Part shown: positions 9,028 to 16,522 of the stretch, piece after piece
Layout of the letters: each line of letters starts with the position of its first letter
How positions within the stretch are numbered: the stretch's first letter is position 1
Assembly (NCBI GenBank): GCA_021463865.1
Contig: JAJTXY010000026.1
Coordinates: 1 to 56,057, forward strand
Direction: 5' to 3'
Source of the DNA: Anaerolineae bacterium
GTDB lineage: Bacteria; Chloroflexota; Anaerolineae; Aggregatilineales; J027
Length of the DNA: 56,057 nucleotides
The notes under the pieces: model-generated
Databases searched by the model: none
Seen by the model: the letters and a program-made list of their open reading frames with translations, nothing else
Told to the model about the DNA's origin: nothing
Made by a program: the position numbers and the translations under genes

Positions 9028-9408
9028 ATGCGTAATATGGGGATGTCTTCATCCGACGAGGCTGCCAATCTAGAAGACCTTTTGCAACTTGCCATTACCC
9101 AAGCGCGACAAGGAAATAAGCAAGGGGCACGGGTGCTTTTGGAACAGGTTTTGGCTGCCGATAAACACAATGACCGGGCGTGGTTGTGGATGGCCTACAC
9201 CAGCACAAACGATATTGACCGCCGTCGCTATCTCCGTACTGTGCTGCAACTCAATCCGAGTAATAAGGCTGCCCGTCAAGCGCTCGACAAAATGCAGCAT
9301 CAGCGCCAAAAATCCGAAGCACGTACTCAGCAGTTTGGTATCTTGGTGCTGGCGATTCTGGTGTTTATCATTGCGGCAGCTTGTTTGGTTGTTATAGTAG
9401 CTCGCTAA
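9028..9408 (+). CDS. Short TPR-like protein with C-terminal membrane anchor
   Basis: Residues of about 15-95 form a TPR-like helical module shared with the next three genes (AITQARQGNKQGARVLLEQVL, split over two helices, then DRAWLWMAY and LQLNPSNKAARQALDKM). The last 25 residues are one hydrophobic helix with no tail, so the helical domain faces the cytoplasm. Function is unknown, and the module suggests protein binding. AAGGGAT at about 9011 supports the ATG at 9028, with later ATGs at 9040 and 9043. Confidence 0.75.
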   Translation: MRNMGMSSSDEAANLEDLLQLAITQARQGNKQGARVLLEQVLAADKHNDRAWLWMAYTSTNDIDRRRYLRTVLQLNPSNKAARQALDKMQHQRQKSEARTQQFGILVLAILVFIIAAACLVVIVAR

Positions 9409-9444
9409 TTTAATCCGCTATTCGACGAGGGGCAGGATAAAATC

Positions 9445-11175
9445 TTGGATCCCGAAGAGATCAAAGCACTTTTGAAGGCAGGTATTGATGCGGCGCGAGG
9501 CAATAACCTGATTATCGCCCGCAGTATCTTTCAGCAGGTCATAGATGCTGACCCGCGCAACGAACTGGCATGGATGTGGCTGGCTCAGGTGTCTGACAAT
9601 ACCGAGCATCGGCGTCAGGCGCTTGAAGAAGTCCTGTCCATTAACCCGAACAACGAAAAAGCACGCTTGGCATTGGATAAGCTGCAAACCGGAACTGGCT
9701 CACTTCGTCCGGCCAGCACGCCGCCATCCCGACCTAGTGAGTCTGGGTTACGGCGACCTACGAGTTTCCCTCAATCGGGCGGTGCATCGGAACCCCCGAA
9801 TTATCTCCGACCTGTCCAGCGGCATGAGTTACCCGGCAATATTTGGGCCAATTCTCGGCGCGAAAACAGTCGCTTGGGGTTCTATCTAACAGGGGCAGTC
9901 GCCGTAGGGCTGATTGGGTTAGCTGTGCTGCTTATTATTTTGCGCGTCACGGGGGATGAAGAAGCCGCCACCGAAACGGATACCCCAACCCCGGTGATTA
10001 TCTTTAGCCCAACTGCGACCATTCCAACCCCGACCCCCACGCAGGGGCGTATTGTGCCAGCTATTACGGTGACACAGCGCACCGTTGATCTGCCGCCAAC
10101 GTGGACACCTTCACCTACATGGACACCCCTGCCCTCGCCGACATGGACACCACAACCACCCGGCTTAGACCAATATACGATTGTCTATGCGGGTAATGAA
10201 ACAGCAGGTGATCCGTTTGTTCTGTACAGTATCGTCGCCGATGGAACACAGCTTCAAGAGGTGCGAATTAGCCTGCCTCCGCTAGAAATAACCTCCGATG
10301 AGGAACCTGCCCAAGAACCCACTGAAGCTCCTACTGAGGAAGGAGAACCTGCCGAAGAAGCCCCAACCGATGTGCCGACAGAAGCACCTGAATCCTCCGG
10401 GGAAGTTGAAATTCTCGATCCAGCACTGTCGCCTGATGGGACTCAACTGGTCTTTACGGCCCAAGAGGGGGCGATTCAAGAGCTATTTATTATGGACTAT
10501 CCCAGTGGCACACCGCGCCAATTAACATATTTGGGGGCTGAACAGACTCTTGGGGCCGCATGGTCACCTGATGGGGTAAACATTTTGTTTGCCTCGAATG
10601 CCACCGGGGATTTTGATGTCTATATGTTAGACCTCACAACGGGCGATGATCCGTTTAATTGGACGAACGACGAAGACTTTGATGATCGTGACCCAGCATG
10701 GTCGCCCGATGGCAGGGCGTTTGCGTTTGCTTCGGATCGTGCTGCCAAGGGCCAGTTGGAAATCTTCGTTACCCCGTTGCAAGGGGGTGAGGTCTGCCAG
10801 ATGACCGATTCCAGCAACAGCAGTTTTGCGCCCGCATGGTCGCCCGATGGTACACGTATTGCGTTTATTACCAATCGCAACACCGATAATGACCTTTTTG
10901 TGATGCGCTCGGATGGTGCAACCGAACGAGTGTTGTCGGTTAATGATGGTGATGCAGAAGAACGTGATCCAGCTTGGTCACCCGATGGGTTGTGGTTAGT
11001 AGTCAGTTCCAACCGTGAAGGTAGTGACACCTCGAATTTGTGGTTGGTGTCAGCCGACGGTGGAACATGGCAGCGTGTTTCGGAGAGCAGCGGAGAAGCC
11101 CGTGATGCTCAGTGGTTGACCAACTCGTTAGCGGTTGGTCCGGCTCCAGATTACACATTCAATTGTGCTAGATAA
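9445..11175 (+). CDS. TPR-module, single-pass membrane protein with PD40 beta-propeller
   Basis: Residues 1-80 are the TPR-like module (DPEEIKALLKAGIDAARGN, NELAWMWLAQ, INPNNEKARLALDKL). A membrane helix lies at about 145-168. A Thr/Pro-rich linker follows (PTPTPT, WTPSPTWTP), including an acidic Glu/Pro stretch at about 280-320. TolB-like PD40 blades then run from about 325 to 560, with repeats of AWSPDG and ALSPDG. The propeller is predicted outside and the TPR module inside, as for a membrane sensor or scaffold. The start codon is TTG, preceded by a GAGGGGCAGG region at 9426-9435. Confidence 0.8.
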   Translation: MDPEEIKALLKAGIDAARGNNLIIARSIFQQVIDADPRNELAWMWLAQVSDNTEHRRQALEEVLSINPNNEKARLALDKLQTGTGSLRPASTPPSRPSESGLRRPTSFPQSGGASEPPNYLRPVQRHELPGNIWANSRRENSRLGFYLTGAVAVGLIGLAVLLIILRVTGDEEAATETDTPTPVIIFSPTATIPTPTPTQGRIVPAITVTQRTVDLPPTWTPSPTWTPLPSPTWTPQPPGLDQYTIVYAGNETAGDPFVLYSIVADGTQLQEVRISLPPLEITSDEEPAQEPTEAPTEEGEPAEEAPTDVPTEAPESSGEVEILDPALSPDGTQLVFTAQEGAIQELFIMDYPSGTPRQLTYLGAEQTLGAAWSPDGVNILFASNATGDFDVYMLDLTTGDDPFNWTNDEDFDDRDPAWSPDGRAFAFASDRAAKGQLEIFVTPLQGGEVCQMTDSSNSSFAPAWSPDGTRIAFITNRNTDNDLFVMRSDGATERVLSVNDGDAEERDPAWSPDGLWLVVSSNREGSDTSNLWLVSADGGTWQRVSESSGEARDAQWLTNSLAVGPAPDYTFNCAR

Positions 11176-11205
11176 TTTATTGGTAGGTAAAGTGAGGGTG
11201 ACCGG

Positions 11206-12696
11206 GTGGATCAGCAATCGCCCAATTCCCAAGTCGAGAATTTGATACGCGACGGTATTGCAAAGGCACGGGCTGGGGACAAAGCTACAGCCCGTCTACT
11301 TCTCCAAAAAGCTGTCGAATTAGATGAATATAGTGAACGGGCATGGTTCTGGTTAGCCAGCGTGGTCGAAACCGATGACGAACGGCGTACCTGCTTGCAC
11401 AATGTCGTTTTGATTAACCCCAACAACGCCCGTGCCCAAGAAATGCTAGATCGGATGGATGAGGCCGGCAGTGGCGAAGCTGCTCCCAAACCCCCGCTGA
11501 ATCCACGCAAAGCGATGATCGGGGCAGTTGTAGCGCTGGTCATCATCTTTTTTGCGTGCATTCTATTTTTGGTGTTTTCCGGCGACGATGGTGACGAAAA
11601 AGAGACACGGGTCACTCCATCCAGCACACCAACAGCGAGCCATACACCGACTGGAACCCCAACCGCAACGGCCACTGCGATCCCAACGATTGACCCGCGC
11701 AGCCTGCCGCCGACGTGGACACCCAGTCCCATGTTTTCACCCACCCCGAACTTGATCGAATCTATTCCAACCCCACCAGCGGAGATCCAAGGCAGGATTA
11801 TTCTGCGGTCTGGTAATGAAGCCCTCGACCGTGAAAATCAGCCCATCTTTTTTGTCAATATCGCCGACCTAAGCCGACTGCCTGCATCTGCCGAGGGAGT
11901 ACGTGGACGAAATCCATCGGTATCGGCGGATGGCACACGCTACGTCTTTATCCAATACTTGTCGGGGACACAGGACATCGCGCTGACGATTTCCAATTTG
12001 AACGGATCAGAAACCCGTACAGCCAGCCAATATTGGGGTGGGGCGAGGACGATTATTTTTGAACAGGATATGCCTGCGTGGTCACCTGTTGGCCCCCAAA
12101 TCGCCTTTATTGGTATGGAAAGTGGCAAACCAGCCACCGATTTATATGTGCTCACCATTGGCGATACTCCTCCTGTTGAAGGTGGCAACCCTGAACTCTT
12201 GCGCCGTCTGACCAATGACGATTCAGCCGAATCTTGGCCTGCATGGTCGCCTGATGGTTCGCGGATTGTGTATGTGGCCGATTTTGTTGATGAGACCCTA
12301 GCCCAACCCAATGGCATTGATCTGTATATCATCAATGTCGGGGATGGCTCCATTGCCCAATTGACCACAGATGTGAATGAATTGGTCGAGTCACAACCGG
12401 ATTGGAGTCCAGATGGGACGCAAATTGTTTTTAGCGGGACGGCTGCGGGCGCGAATACGAGCGATATTTATATGATGCCAGCAGATGGGTCAGCCCCACC
12501 CTCGGTATTGGTGGATTTTGGCCCGCATGACACCCAACCACGTTGGTCACCCGATGGACGTTATATCGTGTTCAATTCCGACATTTTGGGGGGGATTGGC
12601 ACGGATGTCTATATCTATGATCTAGAAACCCAAATGACCTATGCTGTGACCAATGATCCACGCAGTCAAGATGAAGCTAATGATTGGGTGCGTTAG
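11206..12696 (+). CDS. TPR-module, single-pass membrane protein with PD40 beta-propeller (paralog)
   Basis: It has the same architecture as its upstream neighbour: TPR-like module at residues 1-85 (ERAWFWLASVVETDDERRT), membrane helix at about 103-125, Thr/Pro linker (TPTGTPTATAT), and PD40 blades at about 220-490 (PAWSPDGSRIVYVAD, PDWSPDGTQIVFSG, PRWSPDGRYIVFNSD). The start is GTG with GTGAGGG upstream at about 11191. The 30-base gap supports cotranscription. The ligand of the propeller cannot be inferred. Confidence 0.8.
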   Translation: MDQQSPNSQVENLIRDGIAKARAGDKATARLLLQKAVELDEYSERAWFWLASVVETDDERRTCLHNVVLINPNNARAQEMLDRMDEAGSGEAAPKPPLNPRKAMIGAVVALVIIFFACILFLVFSGDDGDEKETRVTPSSTPTASHTPTGTPTATATAIPTIDPRSLPPTWTPSPMFSPTPNLIESIPTPPAEIQGRIILRSGNEALDRENQPIFFVNIADLSRLPASAEGVRGRNPSVSADGTRYVFIQYLSGTQDIALTISNLNGSETRTASQYWGGARTIIFEQDMPAWSPVGPQIAFIGMESGKPATDLYVLTIGDTPPVEGGNPELLRRLTNDDSAESWPAWSPDGSRIVYVADFVDETLAQPNGIDLYIINVGDGSIAQLTTDVNELVESQPDWSPDGTQIVFSGTAAGANTSDIYMMPADGSAPPSVLVDFGPHDTQPRWSPDGRYIVFNSDILGGIGTDVYIYDLETQMTYAVTNDPRSQDEANDWVR

Positions 12697-13010: not shown

Positions 13011-14786
13011 ATGTTCAACAATGGCACGCTTATTCATGATAGTATTCAACGCATTCATCAACTGAGCCGTGACGCAATTCAGTTGGCAGAAAAACTTCGT
13101 CAGCAAGAGCGCCAACTCCGCAAACAGGGCATGGCACTGCCAGCAGGCTCGCTGCAAAAATTGGAAGCGATCCATGTTGACCTTGAAGGGCTGGCCCAAA
13201 AAATTCAGGAGCAGCAAACCGAACTCAGCCAGTTGCGGATGTTGGCAAATACGACAGAATTTGTAAACTCTAGTCTCGATCTAGATGAAGTGCTGAATGG
13301 CGTGATGGATCGTGTGATTCAGCTAGTCGGGGCGGAACGCGGCTACATCATGCTGCACAATCGCGTAACTAATGAGATGGAAATTGTGGTCAACCGCAAA
13401 CTCGACCCGACTTCCAGCCAAGACGAAGAATTTATCTTTAGCCGAACAATTGTGGAAAATGTGGCGCGGACAGGTGAAGCCATTGTCACCACCAATGCTC
13501 AAGAGGACTCGCGCTTTAAAGAACAAGACAGCATTATCAGTCTTGCCCTCCGTAGCATCATTTGTGTGCCGCTCATTTTTAGGGATCGTATCTTAGGAAC
13601 GATCTATTGCGACAACCGTATCAAAGATGGCCTGTTTGGTAAACGTGAGCGCCGTCTGCTGAATGCTTTTGGCGACCAAGCGGCAATCGCTATTGAGAAT
13701 GCCCAACTGTTCGAGCAAATTCAGCAGACCCTTCGTGAAATCACGGCGATTAAAGTGCTGCTTGATAATATTCTGGCTTCTATCGCCAGTGGTGTGGTGA
13801 CCTTAGACGGGCAAGAGGTCATTACCAGCTATAACCTTGCCTCCGAAACCATTTTTGGGCTAACTGCCGAAAGCGCCCTAAATCAACGCTTTGATGTCAA
13901 ACTGCCGCAGATTTACGAACAGATTCAGCGCGAGGCGCAGTTGGTTCGGAGTCTATCTGAAAATTTAACGGTTGAGGCCTCACCAACTCTCGATCAACGT
14001 GGCCCACTGTCTCTAAATTTCAAACTTAGTCCCTTTAAGGATTCCGAGCGCATTACGCAAGGGGTCGCTATTGTGGTGGATGATGTTACGGAATTGAAAA
14101 AGCGTGATGCTACCCTCGCTGCGGTGCGTCGGTATTTGCCACCTGCGATGGTGGACAATATTCGCAGCATCGAACGATTGGCGTTGGGGGGTGAACGGCG
14201 CATGGTGACGGTTTTGTTTGTGGAGGTGCGTTCATTTGATACCTTCCCGGATGCCATGCCGCCGCGCGATGTGATGGAACTGCTCAATACCTATCTCACC
14301 ATCAGTTCTGAGGCGATTCATCACCATGCGGGTTTGATTGATAAATTTATGGGTAGTGACATCATGGCCTTGTTCAATACCCAGCTAAATCCATCTGACC
14401 AACATGCGTGGGATGCCCTATCCGCAGCAATGCGCATGGCTGCTGACTTACGGACGTTGGCAGCCTATGGGGACGTGACCACTGAAGGTAAGGCCTATTT
14501 CCGCATCGGGATTCATTCGGGCGAGGCGACATTAGGCAATGTTGGCAGCACTGACCGTCGTGAATTCACAGCGATTGGTGATACGGTCAATCTTGCCAAG
14601 CGCTTGCAGGAAAATGCTGTCTATGGTCAATTGATTGTCAGCCGTGAAACATTGGCCCTGTGTCAAAATCAGTTGAACCAAACCGACTGGATTGGCTATA
14701 GGGAACTGGAACCCTTGAAAGTGAAAGGCCGGGTACAGCCTGCCTATATCTATGAAGTTTTTGACACGGCGGAAGTTAGCGCATGA
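13011..14786 (+). CDS. GAF-PAS-class III cyclase subunit lacking metal-binding aspartates (catalytic-half partner)
   Basis: An N-terminal coiled coil (1-80) is followed by a GAF domain (about 85-235), a PAS domain (about 245-360) and a class III nucleotide cyclase domain (about 395-585). The two metal-binding aspartates are replaced: FVEVRSF has Glu405 and DKFMGSD has Ser449. The residues for substrate choice and transition state are kept: Lys445, Thr520, and Asn527/Arg531 in AIGDTVNLAKRL. Lys/Thr is the class IIIb pattern for ATP. Alone as a homodimer it should lack metal-dependent activity. The next gene is a paralog with the reverse losses, coupled by an ATGA overlap. Confidence 0.88.
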   Translation: MFNNGTLIHDSIQRIHQLSRDAIQLAEKLRQQERQLRKQGMALPAGSLQKLEAIHVDLEGLAQKIQEQQTELSQLRMLANTTEFVNSSLDLDEVLNGVMDRVIQLVGAERGYIMLHNRVTNEMEIVVNRKLDPTSSQDEEFIFSRTIVENVARTGEAIVTTNAQEDSRFKEQDSIISLALRSIICVPLIFRDRILGTIYCDNRIKDGLFGKRERRLLNAFGDQAAIAIENAQLFEQIQQTLREITAIKVLLDNILASIASGVVTLDGQEVITSYNLASETIFGLTAESALNQRFDVKLPQIYEQIQREAQLVRSLSENLTVEASPTLDQRGPLSLNFKLSPFKDSERITQGVAIVVDDVTELKKRDATLAAVRRYLPPAMVDNIRSIERLALGGERRMVTVLFVEVRSFDTFPDAMPPRDVMELLNTYLTISSEAIHHHAGLIDKFMGSDIMALFNTQLNPSDQHAWDALSAAMRMAADLRTLAAYGDVTTEGKAYFRIGIHSGEATLGNVGSTDRREFTAIGDTVNLAKRLQENAVYGQLIVSRETLALCQNQLNQTDWIGYRELEPLKVKGRVQPAYIYEVFDTAEVSA

Positions 14787-16522
14787 CACTCATTACCCAA
14801 CAAATTGACAACCTGACTACTGAAATCATGCGGCTCAATTATATGGCACAAGAAGTTAGCCATATGCTGCAAGAACAATCTAATCTTCTTCGCATCCGCA
14901 ATATGAGCCTGCCTGCGCCCGTGTTGGAAGATACTCAGGGGTTTAGTGAAGCTGTTAAGTTATTATCCGAGCAGTTGGCTTCGGAACAGGTCGAGCTTGC
15001 CCAGTTGCGTGCCCTTGCCCATACTGGAGGTTTGATTAATTCCTCACTTGATCTTGATACTGTGCTGCGCCGCGCAATGGATACCGTTATTGGCCTCACC
15101 GGGGCAGTACATGGCTATGTGATGCTGCTTGATCAAAATACGGGTGAAACAGAAAAGGTCATCAGCGTCAATTTGGAAGATGGTTCTACCGATGAGGCCG
15201 AGCTGATGATTAGCCGGACAATCGTGGATGAGGTCATGCGGACTCGTCAACCAATCTTGACCACCGATGTCCAAGATGATGAGCGCTTTCAATTGACCGA
15301 GAGTGTTTTGAAATATGACCTTCGCAGCATTCTGTGTGTGCCGATTATCTATCGTGACCAACTTTCCGGCGTGGTGTATGCCGATAATCGTATTCGAGAA
15401 GGGCTGTTTGGCGAAAGCGAATTAAATCTGCTGGTAGCCTTTGCCAATCAAGCTGCCATCGCCATTCAAAATGCCCGCTTGTTCGAACGGGTCAAGGCAC
15501 GGTTGGAAGAAGTTACCGCCATCCGCCAATTCTTGGACAGCATCTTCGCTTCCATTGCCAGCGCTGTCATCACGACGGATGTCAATGGCAATATCCGTAC
15601 CTGCTCCCCCGTCGCCGAGCAAATTTTGGGGGTAACGGCTACTGAATGTGTTGGACAGCACGTGACTCAAGTCTTACCTGCTTTATACGAGGGATTTGAG
15701 AACGTTTTAATCGCGGTGCAGCAGCAGGGGCATCAGGAAATTATCGAAGTCAACACCGTCTTAGCCCATCGCGGCCCAACCAGCCTTAGCCTCAAACTTA
15801 GCCCCCTGCGCGGCGAACAAAATGAAACGCAGGGCGTCGCTATCGTGTTGGATGACTTGACCGCTATCAAGGAACGCGATGAAACTATCAATGTGATTCG
15901 CACCTATTTGCCGCCTGCAATGGTACGCAACATTCAAAGTATTGACAGCTTGGGTCTTGGCGGCGAAGAGCGTGAAATCACAGTGGTCTTTGCGGATGTG
16001 CGTGGTTTTACGACCTTCAGCGAACGGCTTGCCCCCGAAGAATTGATGCAGATTATCAATCAGTATTTGTCGGCGGGTAGTTCGGCTATCCAGTTAATGG
16101 CAGGCATCATTGATAAATACATGGGAGACGCCATTGTTGGGTTGTATAACACTCAGTTAAACCCCCAAACCGATGACCATGCCCTACGGGCGGTTCGAGC
16201 AGCAATGGCCTTGGTGAGCGACGTGCAGGCGCTCCATGAAGTGATGCCGCCTGAACAACGCCTCTTTTATGGCATTGGTATTCATACCGGAACGGCCATT
16301 GTAGGCAACGTAGGCAGCCCCAGCCGCAAGGAATTTACGGCGCTAGGTTATGCTGTTACCTTTGCTAAGAAATTGCAGGAAATTGCCCAGCCGGGTGAGG
16401 TCATTATCAGTGAAGAAACCTATCAGGCGGTTAAGGATCATGTCGTTGCCCAACCCACCGAACGGCGGCTACGTGGCGACAATACCCCGGTGATGGTCTA
16501 TCAATTGACTGATATTCGCTAA
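14783..16522 (+). CDS. GAF-PAS-class III cyclase subunit retaining metal site but lacking Asn/Arg
   Basis: This collinear paralog of the upstream gene has coiled coil 1-80, GAF at about 85-235, PAS at about 245-360 and a cyclase domain at about 395-575. Metal aspartates are intact: FADVRGF (Asp405) and DKYMGDA (Asp449). The transition-state residues are lost: the canonical VNLAARL reads VTFAKKL, so Asn becomes Thr526 and Arg becomes Lys530. Lys445 and Thr519 remain. It is expected to supply the metal site in a heterodimer with the upstream product. Its start overlaps the upstream stop by 4 bases. Its TAA overlaps the stop of the convergent methyltransferase gene. Confidence 0.9.
   Translation: MTLITQQIDNLTTEIMRLNYMAQEVSHMLQEQSNLLRIRNMSLPAPVLEDTQGFSEAVKLLSEQLASEQVELAQLRALAHTGGLINSSLDLDTVLRRAMDTVIGLTGAVHGYVMLLDQNTGETEKVISVNLEDGSTDEAELMISRTIVDEVMRTRQPILTTDVQDDERFQLTESVLKYDLRSILCVPIIYRDQLSGVVYADNRIREGLFGESELNLLVAFANQAAIAIQNARLFERVKARLEEVTAIRQFLDSIFASIASAVITTDVNGNIRTCSPVAEQILGVTATECVGQHVTQVLPALYEGFENVLIAVQQQGHQEIIEVNTVLAHRGPTSLSLKLSPLRGEQNETQGVAIVLDDLTAIKERDETINVIRTYLPPAMVRNIQSIDSLGLGGEEREITVVFADVRGFTTFSERLAPEELMQIINQYLSAGSSAIQLMAGIIDKYMGDAIVGLYNTQLNPQTDDHALRAVRAAMALVSDVQALHEVMPPEQRLFYGIGIHTGTAIVGNVGSPSRKEFTALGYAVTFAKKLQEIAQPGEVIISEETYQAVKDHVVAQPTERRLRGDNTPVMVYQLTDIR

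Follow-up and report, generated by a model that had tools for sequence, protein, structure and literature searches.

Can two adjacent bacterial genes, each lacking part of the class III nucleotide cyclase active site, together encode a single enzyme? The question is raised by a pair of genes, here called A and B, in a stretch of 56,057 nucleotides from an Anaerolineae contig (hereafter the window). Both genes, with all of their features given below, lie on the forward strand, and both begin with ATG: the upstream gene A (13011–14786) encodes 591 amino acids, the downstream gene B (14783–16522) encodes 579, and the stop codon of A overlaps the start codon of B within an ATGA at 14783–14786. The initial annotation had taken them for collinear GAF-PAS-cyclase paralogs that form complementary halves of a heterodimer. 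Our analysis supports this finding and strengthens it: A and B are very probably two subunits that together, as an A–B heterodimer, make up a soluble class III adenylyl cyclase, with A as the C2/beta-like half and B as the C1/alpha-like half.

Complementary active-site residues in the tandem pair

The two proteins are paralogs that align end to end with 43% identity and share collinear domains, and in both of them GAF, PAS and the cyclase domain PF00211 score above the Pfam cut-offs (PF00211 at 64.8 and 64.2 bits, against a curated cut-off of 21.9). In A, the GAF domain covers residues 90–228 (13278–13694), the PAS domain residues 257–363 (13779–14099), and the cyclase domain positions 14202–14732; the counterparts in B are residues 89–229 (15047–15469), residues 250–358 (15530–15856), and positions 15971–16507. 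Each of the two open reading frames holds one cyclase domain, unlike an arrangement of C1 and C2 in a single chain.

Reading the codons directly bore out what had been claimed for each active site. Protein A carries E405, K445, S449, T520, N527 and R531: Glu405 (14223–14225) and Ser449 (14355–14357) replace the first and second metal-binding Asp, but the base-recognition residues Lys445 (14343–14345) and Thr520 (14568–14570) are kept, as are Asn527 (14589–14591) and Arg531 (14601–14603). Protein B, whose numbering runs one residue shorter than that of A ahead of the last three site positions, carries D405, K445, D449, T519, T526 and K530: the metal pair Asp405 (15995–15997) and Asp449 (16127–16129) is present, but Thr526 (16358–16360, alignment position 527) and Lys530 (16370–16372, alignment position 531) stand in place of Asn and Arg. 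HMMER alignments to the solved cyclase structures 6fht, 3r5g and 2w01 support this mapping, and the spacings equal those of the named catalytic residues of Rv1625c, where, in the available text of PMC4174876, Asp256 and Asp300 are 44 residues apart, Lys296 lies four before Asp300, Asp365 and Asn372 are seven apart, and Asn372 and Arg376 four. In an A–B dimer, the complementary loss is predicted to leave one complete and one degenerate site.

We then followed the pair through the window's order, for which the search gave 154 genomes, that of the window among them; in 145 of these A finds a match at E ≤ 1e-60. The tandem pair, or its contig-edge or frameshifted remains, is present in 136 of the 154; nine genomes forming family f8 (G145–G153) have a single homolog each. 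Among the 128 readable pairs, the composite site (B405, B449, A445, A520, A527, A531) reads D, D, K, T/S, N, R in 126, and the remaining two are short of one letter each, which falls in a gap. No non-complementary pair, an outcome that the initial annotation had listed as contrary to its claim, was found among the 128, and, being present in every readable pair, the complementarity is not due to chance.

On the A side, Lys445, Asn527 and Arg531 are kept in 128 of 128 pairs and position 520 is T in 122 and S in 6, while position 449 is never Asp (N 74, T 28, S 21, other 5). On the B side, Asp405 and Asp449 are present in all 127 readable rows, and position 531 is never Arg in the 125 that can be read (L 44, F 36, Y 17, K 12, other 16). 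The invariant lesions are thus A449 and B531, and the breadth of further residue loss varies between lineages. A405 is Asp in 73 of 127 readable rows, the other 55 pairs lacking it (one of them through a gap); B527 has kept Asn in 19 of 125 and lost it in 106; B445 is Lys in 99 of 126 readable rows and Gln in 27; and B520 is neither T nor S in 57 of 125. The exact letters of the initial annotation therefore hold for the window and fail as a general rule, since A often keeps Asp405 and B sometimes Asn527.

Eight pairs were left out of these counts because they were truncated or, in G034, frameshifted in both genes (locus L265, where the frameshifts split both genes and may be sequencing error). 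Seven of the eight are informative and agree with complementarity; the eighth, in G062, lacks the catalytic region. Six genomes outside f8 with a lone copy (G015, G050, G062, G075, G133 and G135) were considered as counter-examples and rejected, as all are contig-edge cases, and partner remnants were recovered for G133 and G035. As far as contigs allow, A and B were never found apart in the 136 genomes. The ATGA-type overlap recurs as well, 57 of the 128 pairs having an ATG at −4. In 89 of 126 pairs the nearest B start comes no later than the end of A, in 35 it follows within 100 bases and in 2 it is further away, two of the 128 having no start in range.

Origin by duplication and signs of reciprocal selection

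Trees built with the catalytic columns removed place A and B as sister clades, with the single-copy homologs outside A+B, and show that the two genes arose through one duplication. In a quick tree (44 of the 128 pairs, 9 f8 homologs, 20 class singles and 3 other paralogs), the support by the Shimodaira–Hasegawa-like approximate likelihood ratio test (SH-aLRT) was 99 for A, 97 for B and 100 for A+B; in a careful tree (24 of 128 pairs, 9 f8 homologs and 10 class singles), bootstrap/SH-aLRT values were 100/98, 100/98 and 100/100. The f8 homologs form the nearest outgroup to A+B in the quick tree (97), a node absent from the careful one.

Single-copy homologs mostly have the complete site. All six residues are present in 22 of 23 of them (9 from f8 and 14 named loci, L027–L040, chosen from the 80 matches listed), the exception being Lys to Met. 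Of 20 class singles, drawn from the 111 genomes of the class that lie beyond the order and have a match, 19 are likewise complete and the remaining one has a gap; the two sets may overlap. A single match is the usual state outside the order, in 98 of the 111 class genomes and in 55 of 57 genomes of a phylum sample. The extra copies in the other 13 class genomes were considered as tandem partners and rejected, since they lie on other contigs or more than 1 Mb away and are mostly longer proteins. Three of these extra copies, on contigs other than that of the best homolog (L295 in G165, L296 in G436 and L298 in G412), keep the Asp pair and Asn and have Gly, Val or Leu in place of Arg531; they are possibly further splits in the making. 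The nearest named records among the matches listed are the Chloroflexi metagenome-assembled genomes CFX5 and CFX10, 97–98% identical, and a plasmid search gave one distant partial match, in two Cupriavidus necator records.

Across 195 comparable columns of the cyclase region, columns 527 and 531 rank 1 and 2 for being conserved in A and free in B, and columns 405 and 449 rank 182 and 183, that is, biased toward conservation in B, as are columns 408–410. On two trees, one for the 128 A rows and one for the 128 B rows, parsimony requires at minimum 18 changes for A405, 22 for A449 and 0 each for A527 and A531, against 0 each for B405 and B449, 34 for B527 and 20 for B531: in total 94 changes at the lost positions and 0 at the reciprocal ones. 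We take the free drift of the lost positions, set against the frozen matching residues of the partner, as the clearest indication of selection on a single composite site. Reciprocal conservation, a single duplication and complete single-copy homologs together fit an A–B heterodimer.

A has also gained residues of its own. Position 450 (14358–14360) is acidic in 124 of 128 A rows (E 117, D 7), in 1 of 127 B rows and in 0 of 23 singles, and Arg517 (14559–14561) occurs in 127 of 128 A rows, 27 of 125 B rows and 0 of 23 singles. These A-specific gains may shape the dead site, and they hint that it could have become a regulatory pocket. Alignment position 498, which we take to be the equivalent of Arg484 in the animal transmembrane adenylyl cyclase (tmAC), was considered as a counter-example (Arg in 83 of 128 A rows, Gly in 114 of 125 B rows) and rejected, as the singles have Gly in 22 of 23.

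Proposed mechanism and alternative explanations

The scheme suggested by these patterns begins with one tandem duplication of a homodimeric GAF-PAS-cyclase gene within this Chloroflexota order, followed by reciprocal residue loss. The active site at the interface would take its metal Asp pair from B and Lys445, Thr520, Asn527 and Arg531 from A, and would cyclize ATP to cyclic AMP (cAMP); from family knowledge, Lys445 and Thr520 suggest ATP as the substrate. The mirror site, made of the metal side of A and the Asn/Arg side of B, would be dead and could be regulatory, and a signal would reach the dimer through the paired coiled-coil, GAF and PAS regions. We infer that A assembles with B and that either homodimer would be inactive, which would make the heterodimer obligate, with exactly one active site. 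It is likely, though less assured than the heterodimer itself, that the pair represents a natural two-gene, obligately heterodimeric bacterial class III adenylyl cyclase, and that the duplication and reciprocal loss behind tmAC and soluble guanylyl cyclase (sGC) took place here once more, independently.

Several observations weigh against this reading. Asp405 is retained in many A rows; and 10 of 10 pairs from the window's own family have Lys at B531, the mildest change seen, such that residual activity of a B homodimer may be possible there. Some non-catalytic columns have an A/B bias as strong as that of the catalytic ones, with 410, 468 and 409 exceeding 405 and 449, and the branching order of f8 relative to the other singles is ambiguous in the careful tree. 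PF00211 is found at ten more places in the window's own genome, which could thus have sources of cAMP other than the pair. Finally, the pair is missing from four genomes of 75–89% completeness (G006, G023, G080 and G081) that contain other cyclase-like matches, and it was therefore lost or unassembled in them.

The Lys at B531 in the window's family also favours an alternative in which B works as a homodimer whose transition-state residues have changed, and A is a pseudoenzyme that pairs with B and so regulates or inhibits it. The canonical Asn is absent from some class III cyclases, the atypical Rv1900c being an example (in the available part of PMC4886424), and B keeps K445 in most rows and the Asp pair in all readable ones. 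Over the order as a whole, however, position 531 of B is usually Leu, Phe or Tyr (in 97 of 125 rows), with its 20 changes on the tree against none for A531, and B frequently departs from Lys at 445 and from T/S at 520; moreover, a pseudoenzyme regulator would have no need of invariant Lys445, Asn527 and Arg531. We consider this explanation improbable. Somewhat less probable still is that neither protein has cyclase activity, the paralogs being in decay or turned to another use, such as signal-binding scaffolds: residues are missing from both, but the catalytic ones are reciprocally invariant over 128 pairs, and in 13 of 13 sampled genomes from two genera (12 of 12 sampled among the 34 of genus g46, and G055) every PF00211 match above cut-off belongs to the pair. 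The rule of homodimers in bacteria, as described in extracts of PMC9552081 and PMC4886424, would favour A and B acting as two homodimers with different roles, their complementarity a fossil of the duplication. Such an A homodimer would lack Asp449 and such a B homodimer Arg531 in every readable pair, and, as far as contigs allow, the genes stay together while their flanks vary beyond closer relatives, which makes this the least credible of the three.

AlphaFold2 monomer models of the two proteins (predicted local distance difference test 81 and 77; predicted template modelling score 0.42 and 0.38; 27 and 24 sequences) both match the catalytic-domain fold of class III cyclases, with TM-scores by target length of 0.77–0.86 over 189–204 columns against chains of CyaC, CyaB and Cya2.

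Relation to known cyclases and genomic setting

In tmAC, the Asp pair comes from C1, and Lys, Asp, Asn and Arg come from C2. As with A and B, each half of this animal C1/C2 pseudo-heterodimer lacks residues that its partner has, and the halves complement each other to give one active and one non-functional site (according to the available text of PMC2576301). A and B differ in being separate bacterial proteins with GAF-PAS inputs, and hydropathy gave no sign of a membrane bundle in either, though no dedicated membrane predictor was used (19-residue peaks of 1.65 in A, at one position, and 1.33 in B, against 2.73 for a permease in the window, with 51 positions above 1.6). Animal sGC alpha/beta is likewise a heterodimer from two genes, and its pseudo-symmetric site lacks key residues and has been proposed to be regulatory (in part of PMC3591389); the Pfam scan found no H-NOX or H-NOXA domain in A or B, with GAF and PAS instead, and their Lys/Thr recognition residues would suit ATP rather than GTP. 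The chytrid rhodopsin cyclases NeoR/RGC, which are eukaryotic and rhodopsin-linked, resemble the proposed A/B enzyme as obligate heterodimers of two class III cyclase proteins, with RGC1 and RGC2 retaining every cyclization-relevant residue and the cause of heterodimerization thought to lie elsewhere (in the available portion of PMC8815786). Since heterodimers of these three kinds are known, we call the pair a variant of an established scheme.

With the bacterial homodimeric cyclases CyaB, CyaC, Cya2 and Rv1625c, the pair shares fold, residue scheme and sequence. Bacterial class III enzymes are described as monomers that homodimerize (in passages of PMC9552081 and PMC4821796; "typically" homodimers in those of PMC4886424), with the catalytic centre forming at the homodimer interface (PMC9552081 and PMC4886424, same passages), and the initial annotation had treated this as the norm. 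Neither A (no Asp449, 128 of 128) nor B (no Arg531, 125 of 125 readable) carries the six residues alone. The closest experiment is that on Rv1625c D300A and R376A, reported to be inactive singly and active in combination (in an extract of PMC4821796): the same two positions are lost by role and spacing, as laboratory mutations there and as natural, conserved losses in A and B. D300 and R376 are not mentioned in the available portion of PMC9433096. In a sequence search of the PDB, the best matches among solved structures were bacterial cyclases; B also matched the first cyclase domain of AC9 and AC10 and A the second, and both matched the first domain of AC8.

What would be new here is thus the bacterial, soluble, two-gene version, the heterodimeric scheme itself being known. 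No natural bacterial two-gene heterodimeric class III cyclase was seen among the open-licence papers listed by the literature searches, and the words heterodimer and homodimer are absent from the main text of PMC2447327 in the portion available. If the interpretation is true, the conserved pair, its active site divided between two bacterial proteins, breaks the homodimer rule for bacterial class III cyclases and provides an independent replicate, parallel to animal tmAC and sGC, of the passage from a symmetric to an obligately asymmetric enzyme. The single-copy homologs of f8, in the same order, would serve as natural controls, and a soluble two-protein system would make it possible to test the reason for abandoning one site and any regulatory role of the dead one.

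A third PF00211 match in G111 falls below cut-off, and none scores above it in five pair-less genomes tested from three genera (G036, G082, G083, G084 and G131; 5 of 5). PF00027 was rejected as a discriminator, as 25 of 25 genomes have it, including five that lack the pair. In g46 (G097–G130), a first look gave 4–11 candidates for the A query in 33 of 34 genomes and 100 in G098, with at least two matches retained in all 34. The window's own genome encodes, on contig 26, a 1075-amino-acid open frame (L010/L011) with two PF00211 domains in one protein. In the alignment the Asn/Arg side is missing from its first domain and both metal Asp residues from its second; this would be a single-chain pseudo-heterodimer, perhaps resembling soluble adenylyl cyclase.

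Around the pair, promoter and terminator scans found sites no more numerous than in shuffled sequence. Neighbouring genes were rejected as a functional clue, since within the flank compared per locus (1.5–6 kb, less at contig ends) they are common only to closer relatives: homologs of the TPR/PD40 genes, the SpoU methylase and S20 adjoining the pair occur at 5–6 other loci, chiefly in family f1, and other flank clusters are confined to genera or families (up to 30 loci, chiefly g46). Upstream of the pair, at 9028–12696, the window has three consecutive genes with a TPR signal, two of them also with PD40 beta-propeller repeats, and homologs of these TPR genes adjoin the pair in six other genomes, all in family f1.

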